A stretch of DNA of 64,000 nucleotides from Myxococcaceae bacterium JPH2 (GTDB lineage: Bacteria; Myxococcota; Myxococcia; Myxococcales; Myxococcaceae). Of this stretch, positions 1 through 10,454 are shown piece by piece. The position numbers and the translations under genes are program-made. Below the pieces are notes generated by a model, which saw only the letters and a program-made list of their open reading frames with translations, searched no databases and was not told where the DNA came from. The DNA is taken from assembly GCA_016458225.1 (NCBI GenBank), contig JAEMGR010000003.1:744001-808000 (forward strand), written 5' to 3'. Numbering within the stretch: the first letter of the stretch is position 1; the number at the start of each line of letters is the position of its first letter.

Positions 1-1980
1 ACCAACCTGGTGAAGGCCCTGGGACGCACGCATCGGGTCGAGGCGCTGGACCTGCTCGCGCGCCGCAGCGTGGACGACGAGGCCCCCGCCGTGCGCCTCG
101 CCTGCGTGGCGGCCGCCATGAAGGTGGCGGGCACGGACCGCGAGAAGACGAAGGACCGCGAGGCGACGAAGCGAGACCCCGAGCTGGCCGTGCGCTTCCT
201 GCGCGTGGCGGTGAAGAGCCTGGACGTGGAGGTGCGCAAGGCCGCCGCCGTCGAGTTGCAGATGGGCAAGGAGGCGGGCCAGGACGCGCTGCTGGTGGGC
301 CTGTTCAACGACCGCGACGCCACCGTGCGCGCGGAGGCCGTGGCGCGCTACTCGAAGCGGGTCATCCACCAGGGCTCGCCGGTGGAGCCGCTGGAGGAGG
401 TCCTGCGCGCCGGCGACCGGCTGGTGATGCTGCCCGCCGCCGAGGGCGTGGCACACAAGGGCCGCGTCAGCGCGCTGCGTCCCCTGCTGCTGTACGCGCG
501 CGCCGGAGAGCCGGGCGACCGGGAGCGGGCGCTGATCGCGCTGGGCACGCTGGGTGACGCGCGCGCCCTCGCGGAGCTGGAGACGGTGGCCGCGGGCGGC
601 ACGCCGGAGGCTCCGGCCGAGCCCTCCATGATGGTGGCCGCCATCGAGGGCCTGGGGCGCCTCGCGGGCCGACTGCCCGAAGGCGAGGAGCGCCGCCGGG
701 TCGAGGAGAAGGTCGAGGCCGCCGCGTTGGAGGGCCAGACCGAGGAGATGCAGCGCGCGGGCGTGTGCGGTCTGCGCGCCATCGGCGGCGAGCGCGCCCG
801 GGTGAAGCTGGAGGCCCTGCTGGCGGACGACGGCACGGACGTGGATGTGCGCGTCACGGTGGCCGAGCAGCTCGGGAAGATGGGAGACCTCGCCGCGGAG
901 GCCGCGCTGGCCGCCGCGCTCGATGACGATGAGGACGAGCTGCGCGAGGCGGCCCGCAAGGCGCTGGACGTGCTCTTCCCGCAGGAGCGCACGCGGGTGG
1001 AGTTCCTCGCGGTGGCCAGCAAGTACACGGACATCTCCGAGCCGGCCGCGGCCTACCTCTCCGGCGAGGGAGACCCCGCGCTTCTGGTGCCCCGCCTGGC
1101 CACCCTGGACAACGCGACGTTGCGGCTGCGGCTGCGCCGAGGCCTCGCGCGACGTGGCGCCCTGCCCATTCCCGAGCTGACCGCGCTCCTGGGCCACGAC
1201 AAGGCGCAGGCCCGCGAGGAGGCCGCGTGGCTGGTGGGCACCTGGACCGGAGAGACGCGCCCGGCTGGCACGGTGGACACCTCCGCGCTGGCGAAGACGC
1301 TGCTCACCACCGAGCGCCGCACCGCCACCGAGTGGGCGGCCACGCCCGCGCCCAAGCGCGCCCCGGTGGCCTCCGCGTGGGAGCGCGTGCTGTGGGCGGC
1401 GTCTCGGCTGGGTGTGCGGGAGCTGGTCGGCCCCGCGAGCGCGCTGCTGCGCTCGGGCGAGTCCGTGGCGCCGGCGAACGTGCGACAGGAAGCCGCGCGC
1501 GCGCTGGGTCGGCTGGGGGCCGTGAAGGAGCTGGACGCCGTGCGCGCCGCCCTCTCCGACCCCGACGCGCGAGTGCGCGCGGCGGCAGCGGACACGCTGG
1601 CGAGGCTCGCGCCCGAGCAGGCGGCGGCGTGGGCGCTGGAAGTGAAGCCCTTCGACCCGGTGGCCCTCGGCCCCACGGGCGCGAAGGTGGCCGCGGAGGC
1701 GCTGGCCACGGACGAGGCCCGCCGGCTCGCGCTGCCTGCGCTGCTCGGCGCCAAGCAGACGGAAACCCTGCGCCCGCTCGCGGCCAACGCGAAGCCCGAG
1801 GTCCGCCAGGACGCCTGGGCCGCGCTGGGTCGCGTGGGTGGAGACGCGGCGACGGAGCTGCTGCACACCGCCGCCTTCGACAAGTCGCAATCGGTGGAGC
1901 TGCGCAAGGCCGCATGGCGCGCCCACAAACGTGCACGCCGTGCCAATGAGCGCGTCCGGAAGGAAGGAACCCCGTCGTGA
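1..1980 (+). CDS. HEAT-repeat protein, 5' end outside window
   Basis: The frame is open to the first base of the window, so the true start lies upstream and the GTG at 10 is only an internal codon. About 659 residues are visible. The protein is an almost uninterrupted string of helical repeats with the HEAT consensus of Arg/Ala-rich second helices, for example VRQEAARALGRLG, VRAAAADTLARLA and VRQDAWAALGRVG near the C-terminus. HEAT repeats make curved scaffolds for protein binding; no catalytic motif or signal peptide is seen. The stop overlaps the GTG start of the SWIM zinc-finger gene by 4 bp (GTGA), so the two are translationally coupled and probably act together. What binds the scaffold is unknown. 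Confidence 0.85.
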   Translation, partial: TNLVKALGRTHRVEALDLLARRSVDDEAPAVRLACVAAAMKVAGTDREKTKDREATKRDPELAVRFLRVAVKSLDVEVRKAAAVELQMGKEAGQDALLVGLFNDRDATVRAEAVARYSKRVIHQGSPVEPLEEVLRAGDRLVMLPAAEGVAHKGRVSALRPLLLYARAGEPGDRERALIALGTLGDARALAELETVAAGGTPEAPAEPSMMVAAIEGLGRLAGRLPEGEERRRVEEKVEAAALEGQTEEMQRAGVCGLRAIGGERARVKLEALLADDGTDVDVRVTVAEQLGKMGDLAAEAALAAALDDDEDELREAARKALDVLFPQERTRVEFLAVASKYTDISEPAAAYLSGEGDPALLVPRLATLDNATLRLRLRRGLARRGALPIPELTALLGHDKAQAREEAAWLVGTWTGETRPAGTVDTSALAKTLLTTERRTATEWAATPAPKRAPVASAWERVLWAASRLGVRELVGPASALLRSGESVAPANVRQEAARALGRLGAVKELDAVRAALSDPDARVRAAAADTLARLAPEQAAAWALEVKPFDPVALGPTGAKVAAEALATDEARRLALPALLGAKQTETLRPLAANAKPEVRQDAWAALGRVGGDAATELLHTAAFDKSQSVELRKAAWRAHKRARRANERVRKEGTPS

Positions 1981-3824
1981 GCACCGCCACCCCTCGCCAT
2001 CCCGTCGCGCTCCGCTACGCCACCGCGAGCGACGTGGACGCCACCTCGGACTCCTCGCGCGTGCTGCTGGCCCTGGAGGGCTCGCGCGGTACGGTGGGCC
2101 TGCGCGGCCGAGTCCGTGACGCCGCCCTCTTCCGCGACGCGCTGAGCGCCGCCTTCGGCGTCCTCGCCAGCGACCTGCGCTACCGGGGCAAGGACCGGAC
2201 CGCGTACCTCGCCTACCTGATGAAGCAGGGCAAGCGCGCCACCGCCCAGATTTGGGAGGCGCAGAAGGCCTTCCTCGACAGCGCGCTGGACGGCGAGGAG
2301 AAGAAGGACGCGGTGCTGGACCCCGTGCTCACGGTGGATCCAGACCAGGTGTCCCTGGAGGTGTTCTCCCGCGATGAGAGCGCCTACGCCCGGCTCGCCT
2401 TCGACAACGCCCTCTTCGAGGGGCGCGAGGCCGCGCACGGCTCCACCTTCCTGGACGTCCCCGGGGACCTCTTGACCAAGGTGGACCGGCTGCGTGCCTA
2501 TGTCCCCGTGTCGCTGGAGGCCCACGTCGCGCTGCCCGTGCGCGGCGAGGCCCGAGCCCCGCGCAACGTCGACGTCCCGCACGCGTGGCTGCGCGGCTTC
2601 CTCCAGGTGCAGTCCGCGGCGACGCTGCCGGCCACCACCTGCGAGCTGGCGCCCATCGACCTCTACAACCTGATGGTCGCGCTGCGCACCCGCAAGGCCA
2701 AGAAGGCCCCGCGCGCGCTGCGCTTCGAGCTGGTGCCCGGCGCGCCCCCGCGCCTCGTGCTGGAGCCGTGGGAGCTGGTGCTGGAGTGCCACGGCGGCAA
2801 GTACACGGGCACGTCCCCCGCCGTGGTGCGCACCTTCGGCCGTCAGCGCCTCATGGCGCTGGCCCGCCTGCTGCCGCACGCGAAGTCGGTGAAGGTGCAG
2901 CTCATGGGCCCGGGCCTGCCGGTGTTCTGGGTCATCGACCTGGGCATGGCCACGCTGACGCTCGGCCTGACGGGCTGGACGGAGAGCGGCTGGTCCAGCG
3001 CGGCCGCCTTCGATGTCCTCATGCCTCGCGCGGTGCCGGACGGGCTGGCGGAGAAGCTGCGCAACCGCCTGCGCGCGGAAGGGCCGCTGCCCTTCGACAC
3101 ACTGGCCGCTACCGCGGGCTCGCCCCGAGACGCCGTGCGCGCCGCGCTCCAGTTGGAGTGCCTGCGCGGGCGCGTCCTCTTCGACGTGGCCGGCAACAAG
3201 TACCGGCCGCGCGAGCTGATGCCCACGCCCGTGGACGAGGCCACCATCCGCTTCGGCAATGAGCTGGAAGCGCGCGCCCACCGCCTGCTCGGCGACGGCG
3301 GCCCCGGCGCGGGCGAGGTGAAGCTCACCAAGGTGCATGAGCTGGTGGGCGAAGGCACCCGCATCCACGGCGAGGTCGTGGACCGCGAGGCCGTGCGCAG
3401 CTTCTTCCCCAGCTTCACGCTGGACCTGGAGAGCCGGCTGCGCGACGCGAGCTGCGGCTGCCCGCACTTCCGCCGCTCGGCCCTGCGCGAGGGCCCCTGC
3501 GAGCACCTCCTGGCCCTGCGTCTGGCTTATGGCCGCCGCCGCGCCGAGGAAGAGGCGCTGCGCCAGACGCCCGAGGGGCGCCAGCTCATCCGCGCCGAGA
3601 CGCGACAGTACGTGCGCCGCGACCCGGTCAGCGGACTGGAGCAGGTGTACCGCGTGTCCCTGGATGGGAAGCTGGTGGGGCTGGAGTGGGGCCCGCGCTC
3701 GGGCGATGCCCGGCACCAGCGGCTCTGGTTCGACTCGGATTCCGAGGCGCGCACCGCGTATTTCGCGCGCCTGGAGCAATTGATGGCCGACGGCTACATC
3801 GACGCGGCCTCGGCCTTGGTGTAA
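1977..3824 (+). CDS. SWIM zinc-finger protein
   Basis: This 615-residue protein carries a SWIM-type zinc-binding motif, C493-x-C495-x12-C508-x-H510, in its C-terminal quarter. SWIM domains bind DNA or proteins. The N-terminal 450 residues have no motif I recognise. GTG is chosen as start because it overlaps the preceding HEAT gene by 4 bp. In many bacteria SWIM proteins of this kind sit in clusters with MoxR-type AAA ATPases, VWA-domain proteins and HEAT/WGR proteins; the HEAT partner fits that, and the other members may lie upstream of the window. That cluster role is inference. The gene is followed directly by the retron RNA, but there is no sign that the two are functionally linked. Confidence 0.85.
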   Translation: MSTATPRHPVALRYATASDVDATSDSSRVLLALEGSRGTVGLRGRVRDAALFRDALSAAFGVLASDLRYRGKDRTAYLAYLMKQGKRATAQIWEAQKAFLDSALDGEEKKDAVLDPVLTVDPDQVSLEVFSRDESAYARLAFDNALFEGREAAHGSTFLDVPGDLLTKVDRLRAYVPVSLEAHVALPVRGEARAPRNVDVPHAWLRGFLQVQSAATLPATTCELAPIDLYNLMVALRTRKAKKAPRALRFELVPGAPPRLVLEPWELVLECHGGKYTGTSPAVVRTFGRQRLMALARLLPHAKSVKVQLMGPGLPVFWVIDLGMATLTLGLTGWTESGWSSAAAFDVLMPRAVPDGLAEKLRNRLRAEGPLPFDTLAATAGSPRDAVRAALQLECLRGRVLFDVAGNKYRPRELMPTPVDEATIRFGNELEARAHRLLGDGGPGAGEVKLTKVHELVGEGTRIHGEVVDREAVRSFFPSFTLDLESRLRDASCGCPHFRRSALREGPCEHLLALRLAYGRRRAEEEALRQTPEGRQLIRAETRQYVRRDPVSGLEQVYRVSLDGKLVGLEWGPRSGDARHQRLWFDSDSEARTAYFARLEQLMADGYIDAASALV

Positions 3825-3894
3825 ACCTCTCAACAACGGCCCGGCCGCCGACGGGGCGGCTGGAAGGATGGGTGCGACGGACGAAATAGTGAAC

Positions 3895-4171
3895 GCGAGC
3901 AGCCGAGAGAGGTCCGGAGCGCATCAGCCTTAGCGCCTCGAGCGCAGGAGCGGCGTTGCGCCGCTCTGGTTGAAATGCAGGACACTCTCCGCAAGGTAGC
4001 CTGTTCTTGGCTCTCTCCCTCCTAGGCACTGCGGCCGGGGCGGGAAGCGGAGTCAACGACGCGACCGCCGTTTTCCCGCCCCGGCCGCAGTGCCTAGGAG
4101 GGGAGAGCCGGTGAGGCTACCGTGCCCCAGGTGAGATGGTGGTGCTTTCCCGGCCTCCCTCGACTGCTCGC
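3895..4171 (+). ncRNA. Retron msr-msd RNA, Mx162 type
   Basis: All parts of a retron RNA are visible. The outer inverted repeats are a1 at 3895-3917 and a2 at 4150-4171, pairing over about 20 bp with two mismatches and a bulge. The msr part starts near 3914, and the conserved TTAGC context places the priming guanosine at 3933. A perfect 8-bp RNA stem (3948-3966, arms GAGCGGCG and CGCCGCTC) is the expected reverse-transcriptase recognition hairpin. The msd part is a long hairpin: 29 perfect base pairs (4018-4046 with 4073-4101), extended by GGCTCTC/GAGAGCC and by GGTAGCCT/AGGCTACC (3995-4002 with 4114-4121). Counting from the branch G and a2, the expected RNA (about 77 nt) and msDNA (about 162 nt) match the known Mx162 sizes. 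The exact ends are inferred. Confidence 0.92.
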
Positions 4172-4222
4172 GCAACGTCCGCCGCCCCACCTCACGCCGC
4201 CGCGCCCGTCCCTGGTGTCGCA

Positions 4223-5674
4223 ATGACCGCGAAGCTTGAGTCCTTCGTCCCCGCCGCTCCACCGCAGGCCATCGCCACCCCGACTCCCGTCGCGCCCACC
4301 GCGAAGGCGTTGGTCCAGCGCGAAGCGCGCCAGGCCGCCCAGGCCGCGGTGCTCGCCCGCTGGAAGGCCATCACCGAGGCCGGCGGCCAGGACGAGTGGG
4401 TGCACCAGCAGCTCGTCGCCCGAGGCGCGCTGGCCGAGGAGGTCGACTTCTCTTCGTTGAAGGAGAAGGAGAAGACGGCCTGGAAGGAGAAGAAGAAGGC
4501 CGAGGCCACCGAGCGGCGCGCGCTGAAGCAACTGGCCTACGAAGCCTGGAAGGCCACGCACATTGGCCACCTGGGCGCGGGCATCCACTGGAACGAGGAG
4601 GGCGGCGCGGACGCGTTCGACATCCCCCACCGCGAGGAGCGGGCCAAGGCCAACGGGCTGCCCGAGTTCACCTCGGCGGAGGACGTGGCCAAGGCGCTGG
4701 GCCTCGGCGTGTCCAAGCTGCGCTGGTTTGCCTTCCACCGCGAGGTGGACACCGCCACGCATTACACGAGCTGGCGGATCCCCAAGCGGGACGGCAGCTC
4801 GCGCACCATCACCTCGCCCAAGACGGAGCTGAAGGCCGCCCAGCGTTGGGTGCTCTCCAACATCGTCGAGCGGCTGCCCGTGCACGGCGCCGCGCACGGC
4901 TTCGTGGCGGGCCGCTCCATCCTCACCAACGCGCTGGCGCACCGAGGCGCGGACGTGGTGGTGAAGGTGGACGTGAAGGACTTCTTCCCGTCCGTGACGT
5001 GGCCTCGCGTGAAGGGCCTGCTGCGCAAGGGCGGGCTGCCCGAGAACATCGCCACGCTGCTCGCGCTCCTCGCCACCGAGGCCCCGCGCGAAGCCGTGAG
5101 CTTCCGCGGCAAGACGCTCTACGTGGCGCAGGGTCCGCGCGCGCTGCCGCAGGGGGCGCCCACCTCACCGGGCATCACCAACGCGCTGTGCCTGCGCTTG
5201 GACAAGCGGCTGTCCGCGCTCTCCCGCAAGCTGAACTTCGTCTACACGCGCTACGCGGATGACCTGACCTTCTCGTGGACGAAGGCCAAGGCGCCCAAGG
5301 CCCGGCGGGCGCAGGGCGCTCCGGTGGCGGTGTTGCTCGCGCGCGTGCAGGAAGTGGTGGAGGCTGAGGGCTTCCGCCTGCATCCGGACAAGACGCGCGT
5401 GGCCCGCAAGGGCAGCCGTCAGCGCGTCACCGGGCTCGTGGTGAACGATGCCGGCCCGAAGGTCCCCGCCGCGCGCGTCCCGCGAGACGTGGTGCGCCGC
5501 CTGCGCGCCGCCTTGCACAACCGTGAGCAGGGCAAGCCGGGCAAGGAAGGCGAGTCACTGGAGCAGCTCCAGGGCATGGCCGCCTTCATCCACATGACGG
5601 ACCCGGCCAAGGGCCGCGCCTTCATGGAGCGGCTGGAGAAGCTGGCCGCGCGAACGACGACGACGGCGGCGTAG
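4223..5674 (+). CDS. ret: Retron reverse transcriptase, Mx162 type
   Basis: The enzyme uses the msr-msd RNA as template and primer to make branched msDNA. From the ATG at 4223 it has 483 residues, close to the roughly 485 of the M. xanthus Mx162 enzyme, which it strongly resembles from memory. Hallmarks: the retron NAxxH motif (N236-H240), catalytic YADD (344-347) and the VTG motif (402-404) that separates retron enzymes from group II intron ones. The N-terminal 130 residues are charged, Lys/Glu/Ala-rich and presumably helical. An in-frame ATG at 4136 is rejected because it lies inside the msd/a2 RNA. No toxin or effector gene of known retron defence types lies next to it, as in other myxobacterial retrons. 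The stop directly abuts the convergent small gene downstream. Confidence 0.95.
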   Translation: MTAKLESFVPAAPPQAIATPTPVAPTAKALVQREARQAAQAAVLARWKAITEAGGQDEWVHQQLVARGALAEEVDFSSLKEKEKTAWKEKKKAEATERRALKQLAYEAWKATHIGHLGAGIHWNEEGGADAFDIPHREERAKANGLPEFTSAEDVAKALGLGVSKLRWFAFHREVDTATHYTSWRIPKRDGSSRTITSPKTELKAAQRWVLSNIVERLPVHGAAHGFVAGRSILTNALAHRGADVVVKVDVKDFFPSVTWPRVKGLLRKGGLPENIATLLALLATEAPREAVSFRGKTLYVAQGPRALPQGAPTSPGITNALCLRLDKRLSALSRKLNFVYTRYADDLTFSWTKAKAPKARRAQGAPVAVLLARVQEVVEAEGFRLHPDKTRVARKGSRQRVTGLVVNDAGPKVPAARVPRDVVRRLRAALHNREQGKPGKEGESLEQLQGMAAFIHMTDPAKGRAFMERLEKLAARTTTTAA

Positions 5675-5890
5675 TCACGTCGCCAAGGCCGGAGCCTCCA
5701 GCTCCGGCAACGTCCGGCTCGCCCACGCCACCTGGCTGTATTCCCAATCACAGCCATCCTTCGTGAGCGGGACACTGAGTCCCAAGACACACGTGACAAT
5801 CAATGCCACGGGCACCAGCCCCCGGGCACGCAGCAGAGGCGGATGATTCGCCGGGTCCAGACGGAGTCGAACAACTCGGCCGATGGGCAT
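5675..5890 (-). CDS. Small putative membrane protein
   Basis: The predicted product has 71 residues: a basic, Arg-rich N-terminus, one hydrophobic segment (about residues 26-44, LVPVALIVTCVLGL and flanks) and a short polar tail containing two Cys. Third codon positions are only moderately G/C-rich, so coding is less certain than for its neighbours. It ends exactly where the retron reverse transcriptase ends, tail to tail with no gap. I recognise no family. It could be a chance frame; equally, single-span small proteins are common retron effectors, so it is worth a conservation check. No clear ribosome binding site precedes the ATG. Confidence 0.35.
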   Translation of the reverse strand: MPIGRVVRLRLDPANHPPLLRARGLVPVALIVTCVLGLSVPLTKDGCDWEYSQVAWASRTLPELEAPALAT

Positions 5891-6040
5891 GACTGTCGAC
5901 CGTAGCACTGGCACCTCAATGCATTGAGGGCGGGTGTCACGAACCCAAGAGTTGTCACGAATGAACACGCCCACGGGATGACGGTTCGACCCGCCTCGGG
6001 CGCGATGGTCCACGTGGCCTCTCGCGGAGAGAGTGTGGCC

Positions 6041-6727
6041 ATGCCCCCATCCCCCCTGATGCGTGTTCCGATTCACGGCACGGCCCTGTGCCTCGCGCTC
6101 GTCTTCGTCGCGTGCAGTGGCTCGAAGGAGCCTCCGCATCCCTCCACGTCGGTCCCCATCTCGGAGGCACGCAAGCGCGACAACGGCACGGAGGTCACCA
6201 TCGAAGGCACCGTCACGGTTCCGCCTGGCGCCTTCACGTCCGCGCTCGGTGATGAGGGCTTCGCTCTCCAGGATGCATCCGGCGGCATCTACGTGAAGAT
6301 GTCACTGCAACAGACCTTCCACCTGGGCGCGAACGTGCGCGTCACCGGCACGCTCGACGAGCAGAACCAGCTGCGCATCCTTCGCGCGGATCCAACCTCC
6401 GTGCAGCTCCTCGAAGGCTCGCAGCAAGCCTCGGCCAAGAGCGTGGACACGGGCAGCGTCAACGAGTCCGTCGAGGGACAGTTCATCCGAATCAGCGGCG
6501 CGGTGACACAGGGCTTCCAGAACGACGAGCCCTATGGCTACAGGTTCGCCCTCAACGACGGCACGGGCGAGGTCCAGGTGTTCGCTCACGTCTCCGCGGG
6601 ATTCGACAAGGCCTCACTGCAAGCCCTCACCGTGGGACAGCGCCTCTCCGTCGTCGGGCTCGCGGCACAGTACGAGGCCGCCTACCACGTCGCGCCGCGA
6701 CAGCCCTCGGACCTGGGCCCACCGTGA
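6041..6727 (+). CDS. Lipoprotein with two OB-fold-like domains
   Basis: The 228-residue product has a signal peptide ending at a lipobox-like FVAC, so it is probably lipid-anchored, although the -3 residue is Phe rather than the usual Leu. Two similar beta-rich halves follow, each with the pattern 'V-x-G-T/A-V ... G-F/Y-x-L-x-D-x-x-G-x-I/V-x-V ... G-x-x-L-x-V-x-G', typical of OB-fold modules found in bacterial envelope proteins. No enzyme motif is seen. ATG 6041 is chosen because GGAGAGAG lies 8 bases upstream; earlier in-frame starts would place a long polar stretch before the signal peptide. Its function is unknown. Confidence 0.75.
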   Translation: MPPSPLMRVPIHGTALCLALVFVACSGSKEPPHPSTSVPISEARKRDNGTEVTIEGTVTVPPGAFTSALGDEGFALQDASGGIYVKMSLQQTFHLGANVRVTGTLDEQNQLRILRADPTSVQLLEGSQQASAKSVDTGSVNESVEGQFIRISGAVTQGFQNDEPYGYRFALNDGTGEVQVFAHVSAGFDKASLQALTVGQRLSVVGLAAQYEAAYHVAPRQPSDLGPP

Positions 6728-6753
6728 GCTGATACGCGGTGTGAATATCGCGC

Positions 6754-6797
6754 CCTCGGGGTCGTCATCGGGAGGCTGCCCACCCTCCTACCCGAGG
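6754..6797 (+). promoter_or_regulatory. Hairpin enclosing the ribosome binding site of the next gene
   Basis: CCTCGGG (6754-6760) can pair with CCCGAGG (6791-6797), and inside it GGGAGG (6770-6775) pairs with CCCTCC (6783-6788). The outer right arm contains the start of the GAGGAG Shine-Dalgarno sequence (6794-6799) of the gene beginning at 6806. Folding would hide that site. It might be a translational switch, or simply a weak terminator for the preceding gene. Confidence 0.4.
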
Positions 6798-6805
6798 AGC
6801 ACCCC

Positions 6806-7519
6806 GTGCGCGCCGTCTCTCTCCATGCGCGGTCCAGCCTCCTGCTGGCCGCGACCCTCCTTCCCCTGGTCACCCAGGCGGAGTCCCCCGAGTCCGACAA
6901 TCCCTCCGCGCCAGTCGAGTCCGAGGCAGGCCATGGACTCTCGGAGCCCGCCCCACAGCTCGCATCGGACGACAATGAGAGGACTCACGCGCGGGAAGTC
7001 TTTGATGAGGAGCGCCCCACCCATCGTGGCAGGACCAAGCTCGATGTCGGCTTCGCCGCGGGCTTCAACAGTCCCTCGGGCATCGTCGGCGGCGAGCTTG
7101 AGTTTCGAGCCATCCCCCAGCTGGGTTTGAACCTGGGCGCGGGCATCGGCGCGTGGGGCACGCGCATCAGCCCATCGCTTCGGCTGTACCCACTGGGGGA
7201 AGTGGGCGCGAGTCCATTCTTCGAAGCGGGCGCGAGCTTCAACCTCGGGACCGAGGCGTACTCGGAAGAGCATCCTGGGAACCGGAACTACGCGGAGCTG
7301 CTGATGACCCCTGCGGCCATCGGGAGCTTCGGCCTTCGCGCCGCGCTCGGGACCAAGGTGTACCTCACGTCGCGAGTGGGCTGGGCCTGGAGACTGCGTG
7401 AGGACAACTACCGGATGCGCGATGGCAGCCGCCCCGATGCCTTCACCGAGGACGTCATCGACCTGCTCCAGCACGGCGGATTCCTCACCAGCCTGACGCT
7501 CGGCTTCGCGTTCTACTGA
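6806..7519 (+). CDS. Secreted or outer-membrane protein, beta-barrel-like
   Basis: The 237-residue product starts with a signal peptide (hydrophobic LLLAATLLPLV, cleavage near TQAES). An acidic, low-complexity linker follows, then from about residue 75 alternating hydrophobic strands rich in Gly and aromatic residues, ending in a C-terminal Phe-Tyr (TLGFAFY). An aromatic last residue is the usual mark of an outer-membrane beta-barrel strand, so this may be a small barrel protein. The GTG start has GAGGAG 7 bases upstream. No family is recognised. Confidence 0.75.
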   Translation: MRAVSLHARSSLLLAATLLPLVTQAESPESDNPSAPVESEAGHGLSEPAPQLASDDNERTHAREVFDEERPTHRGRTKLDVGFAAGFNSPSGIVGGELEFRAIPQLGLNLGAGIGAWGTRISPSLRLYPLGEVGASPFFEAGASFNLGTEAYSEEHPGNRNYAELLMTPAAIGSFGLRAALGTKVYLTSRVGWAWRLREDNYRMRDGSRPDAFTEDVIDLLQHGGFLTSLTLGFAFY

Positions 7520-9557: not shown

Positions 9558-10454
9558 CTACCGCGCGGCCTCGGCGGGCGGCACGGGAGGTAGGAGCGCG
9601 GCGTCGAAGAACGCGCGCAGCCGGCGCGGATACTCGTGAGGCTCGGTGGTCTGGAATCCCCCGTGCGACGCACCTGGGATGCGCCACGTCTGGGCATACG
9701 GCGCCACCTGCGCGAACAGTTCATCCAAGAGCGGCTGACCTGACTCCTCTGTCCCCGCGACGATAAGGAGCGGGCGAGGCCGGATGTGCTCGACCGATGC
9801 CTGGGTCCGCACCTCCTCCAGCGCAATGCCGCGCCGCCAGAAGGGCATCAGCGCCCCCGACTCCGTCACCACCCCGAAGCGGCGAAAGTCATACGCGGCG
9901 GCCAGCCGCAACGTGTTGAACGGCGACAACAACACCACCGCCGCCACACCCGTGTCCCGCGCCGCGACCTCCGCCACCGCCGCGGAGCCGATGGAGAACC
10001 CGAGCGCTCCCACTCGCGCGGGCTCCACGTCGGGACGCCCTCGCACGTAGGCCAGCGCGGCGCGGATGTCCCTCCGCTCCAGGTCGCCCCAGGTGGAGAA
10101 CGCTCCCGCGCTCTCGCCATGGGCCCGCAGGTCGAACAGCAGCACGCCGTAGCCCGCGTCTCGCAGCACCCGCGCCTCGGGCAGCAGGTCCGCGCGCGTC
10201 TGGGAGAGGCCGTGCGCCAGCACCACCGCCGCGTGGTTTCGCGAGGGGAGGTACCAACCTCGCAGCTCCAGTCCATCCTCGGTCCGCAGCTGGATGTCCT
10301 CGGCCTCGGCCAGGTCCGCTGGGCGCACGGCCGTGGGCCTTGGGTAGTGGAAGTACTGCTCGGAGCGCATCATCGCGCGGACGAAGAGCGCCCCCGCGCC
10401 CAGCACGCCTGCCGTCAGCACGCTGCCCAGCACAACCCACCACTTCCTCGCCAT
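9558..10454 (-). CDS. Membrane-anchored alpha/beta hydrolase
   Basis: The 298-residue product starts with one hydrophobic segment (VVLGSVLTAGVLGAGALFV), a signal anchor or signal peptide, so the enzyme probably works in the periplasm. The alpha/beta hydrolase core has the oxyanion-loop LAHGLSQ, the nucleophile elbow GFSIGS with Ser154, and the catalytic His264 in GASHGGF. The expected acid falls in GTEESGQP, where Glu seems to replace the usual Asp. It resembles the BAAT/dienelactone hydrolase-like peptidase group. The substrate is unknown. It is divergent from the GMC oxidoreductase gene. Confidence 0.85.
   Translation of the reverse strand: MARKWWVVLGSVLTAGVLGAGALFVRAMMRSEQYFHYPRPTAVRPADLAEAEDIQLRTEDGLELRGWYLPSRNHAAVVLAHGLSQTRADLLPEARVLRDAGYGVLLFDLRAHGESAGAFSTWGDLERRDIRAALAYVRGRPDVEPARVGALGFSIGSAAVAEVAARDTGVAAVVLLSPFNTLRLAAAYDFRRFGVVTESGALMPFWRRGIALEEVRTQASVEHIRPRPLLIVAGTEESGQPLLDELFAQVAPYAQTWRIPGASHGGFQTTEPHEYPRRLRAFFDAALLPPVPPAEAAR

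Follow-up and report, generated by a model that had tools for sequence, protein, structure and literature searches.

Mx162-type retron of Myxococcaceae bacterium JPH2: RNA anatomy, co-inherited SWIM and HEAT partners and a predicted sliding-clamp fold

The stretch of Myxococcaceae bacterium JPH2 DNA analyzed here (the window; 64,000 nt of contig JAEMGR010000003.1, positions 744,001 to 808,000, or G000:C3:744001-808000) contains a retron of the Mx162 type near its 5′ end. The retron consists of a reverse transcriptase (RT) gene and a noncoding RNA, which directly follow the genes of a SWIM protein and a WD40-HEAT protein on the same strand. The start of the SWIM gene overlaps the stop codon of the WD40-HEAT gene, which begins at G000:C3:739483, 4.5 kb before the window. 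A second HEAT protein of 909 residues is encoded outside the window at G000:C3:732526-735252, with 4.2 kb between its stop codon and the WD40-HEAT gene. The first-pass annotation had described the locus as a complete Mx162-type retron; the landmarks of the RT and the RNA were found as described, apart from the branch G, but the system is more than these two parts, and the SWIM and WD40-HEAT genes upstream had been missed. The features of the locus are as follows.

1–1980, plus strand: 3′ part of the gene for the WD40-HEAT protein (HEAT-ARM_XIII; 2165 residues as a whole); PADLOC E 2.5e-116 for the part in the window
1977–3824, plus strand: SWIM_XIII protein, 615 residues; PADLOC SWIM_XIII E 3.5e-158, Pfam SWIM
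3894–3926, plus strand: a1 arm of the closing stem; 79% complementary to 4140–4172, 3 pairs changed on both sides
3927, plus strand: predicted branch G; CAGC in 26/26 loci, AGC in 21/21 copies of a broader set
3947–3967, plus strand: msr hairpin, the putative RT recognition stem; 9 pairs, 100% of cells paired, 24 distinct sequences
3968–4015, plus strand: conserved core of msr and 5′ msd; 4.1% mean pairwise difference against 29.0% in the stem columns
3977–4138, minus strand: predicted msd, cDNA of ~162 nt; length from PMC6868368 and the end of the a1/a2 stem, ends by homology to within about one base
4007–4111, plus strand: msd hairpin; inner perfect 30 bp (4017–4046/4073–4102), loop 4047–4072
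4140–4172, plus strand: a2 arm of the closing stem; pairs with 3894–3926
4223–5674, plus strand: retron RT, 483 residues, with a helical N-terminal extension; PADLOC RT_XIII E 2.1e-155, motifs and a moderate AlphaFold2 model

The RT reading frame is taken from the ATG at 4223; a longer open reading frame from 4136 begins within the RNA. The marks of retron RTs are the motifs NAxxH, YADD and VTG, and the window RT has them as NALAH, YADD and VTG, in agreement with the first-pass annotation. NA..H, YADD and TG are invariant in 22 aligned RT sequences, an alignment made without L029, which has a stop codon in the coordinates used. The closest solved RT in profile comparison is that of retron Ec86 (E about 1e-50), and the group II model scores 43 bits against a cut-off of 300, so the group II affinity that had been named as a counter-possibility is not observed. 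The AlphaFold2 model of the RT is of moderate quality (pLDDT 69) and was used for the helical N-terminus only. The RT is 98% identical to that of Citreicoccus inhibens (L003), the nearest named relative among the loci, and 78% identical to that of M. xanthus AM003. By these sequence criteria, the RT is a retron RT, and the retron is a complete one of the Mx162 type.

The RNA is built around two sets of inverted repeats. The inverted arms of the msd hairpin are 30 nt each and 100% complementary, with a loop of 26 nt; the earlier call had been a1/a2 repeats and a hairpin of 29 bp. The a1/a2 pairing spans 279 nt. The RNA at 3891–4180 (290 nt) folds at −202.1 kcal/mol versus −130.9 kcal/mol (standard deviation 5.0) in dinucleotide shuffles, 14 standard deviations below the shuffle mean. 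None of the 200 shuffles folds as low, and the structure is therefore not a product of chance. The length between anchors is 282 nt in 23 of 26 loci including the window, 281 nt in two and 283 nt in one, and the window RNA and the M. xanthus copy (L017) are both of 282 nt. An Rfam search of the window returned no family reaching its gathering score.

The priming position was located by conservation. ATCAGC is present in all 26 loci, 18 nt (19 nt in L023) from the start of GAGAGAGGTC, and the CAGC within it lies at 3925–3928 of the window. Because CAGC is universal in these loci and is given as the priming motif of Mx162 and Sa163 in the review PMC6868368, G3927 is the most likely branch nucleotide. 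A broader set of 21 copies has AGC throughout (CAGC in 20, TAGC in L035), and the distance from AGC to the TTGG after the core is equal in 18, one base longer in two and three bases shorter in one. The branch had been placed at G3933, six bases away, where AGC is kept in only 21 of the 26 loci (AAC in L008 and L013, CGC in L022 and L037, and a shifted GCG in L023), and this position is disfavored. The previously predicted RNA of near 77 nt also disagrees with PMC6868368, where the msr is 71 nt; the same review gives a transcript of 241 nt, compared with the 279-nt pairing span in the window. Since the RNA equals the M. xanthus copy in length, a multicopy single-stranded DNA (msDNA) of ~162 nt is predicted by homology. 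Assuming an overlap of 8 nt and an msd of 162 nt, the cDNA would run from about 4138 to 3977.

Different parts of the RNA change at very different rates. Averaged over all pairs of 26 sequences, the msd stem differs most, at 29.0%, followed by the surroundings of the branch (12.6%), the apical loop (8.7%), a1/a2 (6.3%), the msr hairpin (5.6%) and the core (4.1%). Standard pairs nevertheless occupy 98.6% of the cells of the proposed structure. Changes on both sides of a pair are found in 29 of 81 pairs versus 12.1 in shuffles, and in 134 cells versus 30.4, values that none of 500 shuffles reached. The stems of the window and L003 differ at 9 of 58 positions, which fall in five pairs; four of these pairs are preserved and the fifth is an A-C mismatch in L003. 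The five other regions counted have 2 differences in 196 positions. Seven of the 58 stem positions differ between the window and the M. xanthus copy. For the genome pair G000/G055, the stem divergence of 15.5% compares with a synonymous divergence (dS) of 0.14 for the RT and 0.09 for the SWIM protein. With divergence close to the synonymous rate, the stem appears almost unconstrained in sequence but has kept its pairing. Change is slower in the msr hairpin, in the core and in the apical loop, and comparison among the 26 sequences thus answers the question, raised in the first-pass annotation, of which parts are under selection. The hairpin is 105–106 nt long in 21 of 23 copies; of the other two, one was misread by the search pattern and one is cut. 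A stem that is fixed in length and free in sequence fits what sequence-blind binding of a duplex would require.

The stem arms are also rich in palindromes, as the arm at window 4016–4046 exemplifies. In an unplanned test made after the stems had been seen, clustering at 75% identity reduced 51 arms to 23. These 23 arms of 27 nt contain 31 six-base palindromes. Dinucleotide shuffles average 14.0, none of 2000 reaching the observed count, and GC-matched stretches would give 10.7, none of 5000 reaching it; the excess is two- to threefold. The 51 unclustered arms contain 65 versus 26.2. An 18-nt piece of the window stem has no match in viral contigs. A stem piece of one relative has a single match, in a viral contig without a hit of the RNA model (R1); this match was taken as chance, and a phage-derived stem was rejected.

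The system is of PADLOC type XIII and is composed of four proteins and one RNA, a label that rests on the PADLOC models: the RT and SWIM protein match RT_XIII and SWIM_XIII, and the two HEAT proteins match HEAT-ARM_XIII (1566 bits for the whole WD40-HEAT protein and 1020 bits for the 909-residue protein). In the L003 orthologue of the WD40-HEAT protein, Pfam assigns WD40 repeats to the N-terminal part and HEAT repeats to the remainder. The distribution of the parts was followed in one genome per species across the order, 145 in all. The WD40-HEAT gene, the 909-residue HEAT gene and the RNA (model R1) are each found in 65 of the 145, and these are the same 65 genomes, all of which also contain an Mx162-type RT and a SWIM protein. 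A plain DNA search for the RNA recovered the same 65 with five marginal matches (E 1e-5 to 1e-3), and an R1 search of 195 genomes of the phylum added three with the RNA outside the order. The RT and SWIM searches give larger totals (87 and 70 genomes), as they also pick up other types of RT and SWIM protein. Counted by genus code, the system is present in g1 (2/2), g3 (6/6), g4 (2/6), g5 (16/16), g7 (7/7), g8 (1/1), g19 (27/27) and g26 (4/7), and in none of the other genera of the family. Genomes of g4 and g26 without the HEAT genes also lack the SWIM protein and the RNA, save for one marginal DNA match in G130; RTs of other kinds match in some of them, most strongly in G054 (E 3e-89, 79% complete). 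The named loci and the genome set overlap in their assemblies and do not count as independent samples.

In the six g3 genomes (probably the Archangium group), RT and RNA have become separated from the SWIM and HEAT genes, yet all parts are present. The distance between the two halves is 3–5 kb in G043, G047 and G048 and about 60 kb in G044. The halves lie on different contigs in G045 and G046, and G045 has an RNA cut by the contig end about 1 kb after its SWIM gene. The order u-HEAT-SWIM-RT recurs in distant families at 35–60% identity. In two loci of the Archangium group, different genes occupy the interval between SWIM and RNA (L071 2440–7186 and L072 2400–5485); the set includes a Tox-REase-5 protein and, by eye from the open reading frames, an AAA-like ATPase and a LysM-like protein.

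The phylogenetic evidence points to descent within the lineage. The RT and rpoB trees of 34 genomes have 26 of 31 splits in common, with no conflict among splits supported at at least 95, and the SWIM and rpoB trees of 29 genomes have 19 of 26 in common, without conflict. The rpoB gene was sought in 37 genomes and used from 34 (no match in G069 and G081; split over contigs in G136), and the SWIM trees were built without G044, G045, G046, G052 and G132, whose analyzed stretches include no SWIM gene. The ratio of nonsynonymous to synonymous divergence (dN/dS) is 0.09–0.38 for the RT (ten genome pairs) and 0.07–0.27 for the SWIM protein (nine pairs), and 0.01–0.14 for rpoB. An alpha/beta hydrolase gene at window 9558–10454 has a match in 22 of 41 named loci and lies within 1.1 kb of the RT end in 20 of the 21 loci that include that end (2.8 kb in L003; about 4 kb in the window). 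A search of viral contigs that reaches close relatives only found no SWIM protein. Against phage records, the RT has 27 matches, all below 60% identity and none over 80% of its length. Against plasmids, the SWIM protein matches 2 of 72,556 records at 25–35% identity, one of which covers 83% and lies on a 2.8-Mb Methylobacterium replicon. Mobility of the system was considered, and no sign of it emerged from these viral, phage and plasmid searches. Tree agreement, a conserved flank and the lack of close matches in these viral, phage and plasmid searches together support vertical descent of the retron, as first proposed.

The SWIM protein is predicted to combine a clamp-like region with several smaller domains. 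The layout comprises a PCNA-like clamp (residues 41–336), a winged-helix-like part (about 343–411), a SWIM zinc finger (482–516) and a WGR-like part (about 543–604). Across 20 members, Pfam detects SWIM in 17, and winged-helix families and WGR weakly and in few. An AlphaFold2 model based on 20 homologues has a pLDDT of 78 and a pTM of 0.74, with a low-confidence insertion at residues 70–109. All of the 50 matches listed by Foldseek against the PDB are PCNA entries (best E 6e-7). VIA-align superimposes the model on Sulfolobus PCNA with a Z of 16.1 and a root-mean-square deviation of 2.7 over 212 residues of the 245-residue chain; the match spans model residues 42–336, and 538 of 999 chains score a Z of 8 or more. 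A viral structure library gave 55 matches at E up to 0.001; the 50 listed comprise 28 named clamps (PCNA, polymerase III beta/DnaN and herpesvirus ORF59) and 22 entries without an informative name. Each of the four helices that would correspond to the channel helices of PCNA has residues that are K/R in at least 90% of rows: R53 on one, R171 and R173 on another, R206 on a third, and R289, R291 and R297 on the remaining one. Residues 41–336 are thus predicted to adopt a two-domain PCNA sliding-clamp fold. As far as could be checked, a clamp fold in the SWIM component is new; no link between retrons and clamps was among the matches listed in a literature search, which does not imply its absence from print.

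Relatives of the window retron have other RNA layouts. Two tandem msr-msd copies, each with its own stem, occupy one SWIM-RT gap in L016, L032, L058 (G080), L060 (G051), L061 (G136) and L062 (G132), the second copy in L062 being cut by the contig end. A single RT lies beside them wherever the RT falls within the stretch, and a literature search for tandem msr-msd retron RNA gave no match. L144 (G185) has a single RNA copy in its SWIM-RT gap and two more behind the RT (4555–7045). In L143 (G149; 3836–4068), an RNA copy directly precedes the 909-residue HEAT gene, and the RT is on another contig.

In L027, L029, L031 and L034, the SWIM-RT gap is about 20–30 nt, with no room for the RNA. The genomes of these loci (G196–G199; distant metagenome assemblies that also hold other RTs) contain 4, 6, 5 and 6 strong RNA copies, respectively (E <1e-14; loci L157–L174), none of them on the contig that carries the closest RT, so that they lie in trans. 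The same search of 10 genomes gave a match at E up to 0.1 in six, and none in G195, G201, G202 and G203. In each of the 21 strong trans copies, the priming AGC precedes the end of TTGG by about 85 nt. Hairpins could be delimited in 19 of them (the other two are at contig starts) and measure 107 nt in 17 of the 19. Four trans-copy sites are common to G197 and G199 by flanking genes. The stem is replaced at two of these sites (47% and 50% identity; msr 86% and 88%) and kept at two (93%). A further pair, G197:C15/G199:C344, was left uncounted for its ambiguous synteny (stem 47%, msr 97%). If used by their RT, such trans-encoded RNA sets would break the rule that a retron RNA adjoins its RT.

More distant or irregular loci were also recorded. 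All 12 loci of the 620-bit SWIM-RT paralogues (L046–L057, nine genomes) have weak msr-model matches (E 0.0045–0.37) in the interval between SWIM and RT, which suggests a shorter related RNA. The JPH2 genome has a second RT (L045 10367–11902, on G000:C5) with an intact reading frame, a 385-bit RT_XIII match and a weak N-terminal HEAT match; its upstream gene encodes HEAT and aldo-keto reductase parts, and no Mx162-type RNA was found at the locus. L019, in a record titled Comamonas sp. KCTC 72670, is a typical copy of the myxobacterial operon and probably reflects a mislabeled or mixed record. The RT of a metagenome-assembled genome (L030 4062–5374) matches in two pieces with residues 125–163 unmatched, the result of a frame break or an assembly error.

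Compared with known systems, the window retron resembles Retron-Mxa1 (Mx162, M. xanthus) and Retron-Sau1 (Sa163) in the hairpin, the N-terminal extension of the RT and the CAGC motif, the last as given in the review; the likeness is drawn from the loci of relatives and this review. Unlike the Mx162 locus, the window system has about 4 kb of other genes between the 909-residue HEAT gene and the WD40-HEAT gene, and likewise between the RT and the hydrolase gene. All four proteins match PADLOC type XIII (RT_XIII, SWIM_XIII and HEAT-ARM_XIII), to which the present analysis adds the predicted SWIM clamp, the WD40 part of the large HEAT protein and the tandem and trans RNAs of relatives. Retron Ec86 (Eco1) likewise consists of an RT, an RNA and an accessory protein. 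The Ec86 accessory protein is an NAD-cleaving filament rather than a protein of the SWIM or HEAT kind, and we know of no clamp in that system. PCNA and DnaN have a fold like that predicted for SWIM residues 41–336 but no detectable sequence similarity to it, and, unlike in these clamps, the clamp region of the SWIM protein is followed by winged-helix-like, SWIM and WGR-like parts. The titles of Lampson and Rice (1997) and Lampson (2002) speak of repetitive or partial msDNA-like sequences and of retrotransposition in Nannocystis exedens. The copies in G196–G199 are similarly dispersed in their genomes; set against those titles, they keep the msr, have mostly full hairpins and occupy some sites common to species. 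The retron itself is in essence already described for M. xanthus, and the interest lies in its partners, above all the predicted clamp, and in the movable RNAs.

These observations are best explained by a vertically inherited Mx162-type (type XIII) retron that operates with a set of three partner proteins, a reading to which we assign a probability of roughly 0.8. The RNA (3894–4172) would fold on itself, and the RT would prime on the 2′-OH of G3927 and copy back from about 4138 to 3977. The product would be a branched RNA-DNA molecule whose DNA half forms a 30-bp hairpin with a conserved loop. The RT and msDNA would work with the 909-residue HEAT, 2165-residue WD40-HEAT and SWIM proteins in a complex in which, most likely, the HEAT proteins would serve as the scaffold and the clamp-like SWIM protein would hold or read the msDNA duplex regardless of sequence. 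Such a complex might sense DNA events such as phage replication or damage, a step that we put at slightly worse than even odds. Other retrons with known roles are reported to be anti-phage systems, and a defense role could be envisaged here as well.

Several points weigh against this reading. The SWIM profile has no match among solved structures at E up to 1, and hhalign of the SWIM protein with myxobacterial DnaN gives E 0.22 and a probability of 0.3%, which is not significant. M. xanthus without msDNA is reportedly viable with normal growth, a poor fit to a toxin that is armed at all times. The 65-genome co-occurrence mostly comes from one clade and amounts to few evolutionary events, and presence in every genome of six genera is unusual for a defense system.

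Three other explanations have to be weighed. Clamp, HEAT and WD40 folds occur widely among proteins of DNA maintenance, and the complex may be a host machine for replication, repair or development that uses msDNA as a nucleic-acid cofactor. The agreement of the RT tree with rpoB, the absence of a match at useful coverage in the phage and viral collections and the presence of the system in 59 of 59 genomes of g1, g3, g5, g7, g8 and g19 (genera chosen after presence had been seen) favor such a role, but the patchy occurrence in g4 and g26 and the absence from other genera of the family do not; retron papers describe retrons as anti-phage systems, and PADLOC files type XIII under defense. The one open paper found on type XIII gives it only as a PADLOC prediction, and a literature search for retrons with SWIM and HEAT partners gave a single paper, on Sulfitobacter by its title. 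A maintenance machine is a credible alternative with the balance somewhat against it. The likeness to clamps could also be structural only, with the SWIM protein borrowing the fold as a scaffold and never encircling DNA. This would account for the lack of sequence similarity to clamps and is compatible with a match that derives from a monomer model with a low-confidence insertion, but it sits less easily with the extent of the match (residues 41–336 at Z 16.1) and with the conserved Arg on all four channel helices, which is suggestive; we lean against a scaffold that never encloses DNA, though not strongly. It is very unlikely that the RT and RNA are neutral or selfish and the SWIM and HEAT genes bystanders in an ancient chromosomal neighborhood. 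The linkage is largely inherited in one clade, where co-occurrence alone is weak evidence, and neutrality is listed as a possibility for retrons in PMC6868368. Bystander genes, however, would not be expected to recur in the same order in far relatives, to persist in full where RT and SWIM no longer adjoin and to show the low dN/dS ratios of the RT and SWIM protein, and a selfish element is disfavored by the lack of any sign of mobility in viral contigs and phage records.

A more far-reaching and unlikely reading is that type XIII is a sliding-clamp retron. A ring of SWIM proteins would thread onto the msDNA hairpin, whose duplex is of set length, variable in sequence and closed by a conserved loop, and the changeable, palindrome-rich stems, replaceable at a fixed site, would act as bait for the methyltransferases, restriction enzymes or nucleases of invaders. 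The set of hairpins offered as bait would then comprise the single hairpin of the window, the tandem pairs of some relatives and the four to six strong trans copies of others.

Mx162 was among the first retrons found, and its role has been a puzzle for 40 years. A retron of this type is now tied to three co-inherited partners, one of them with a predicted clamp fold, and covariation indicates that its msd stem is kept for pairing and not for sequence. The old puzzle thereby becomes testable through msDNA binding by the clamp-like protein, ring formation and a common deletion phenotype.

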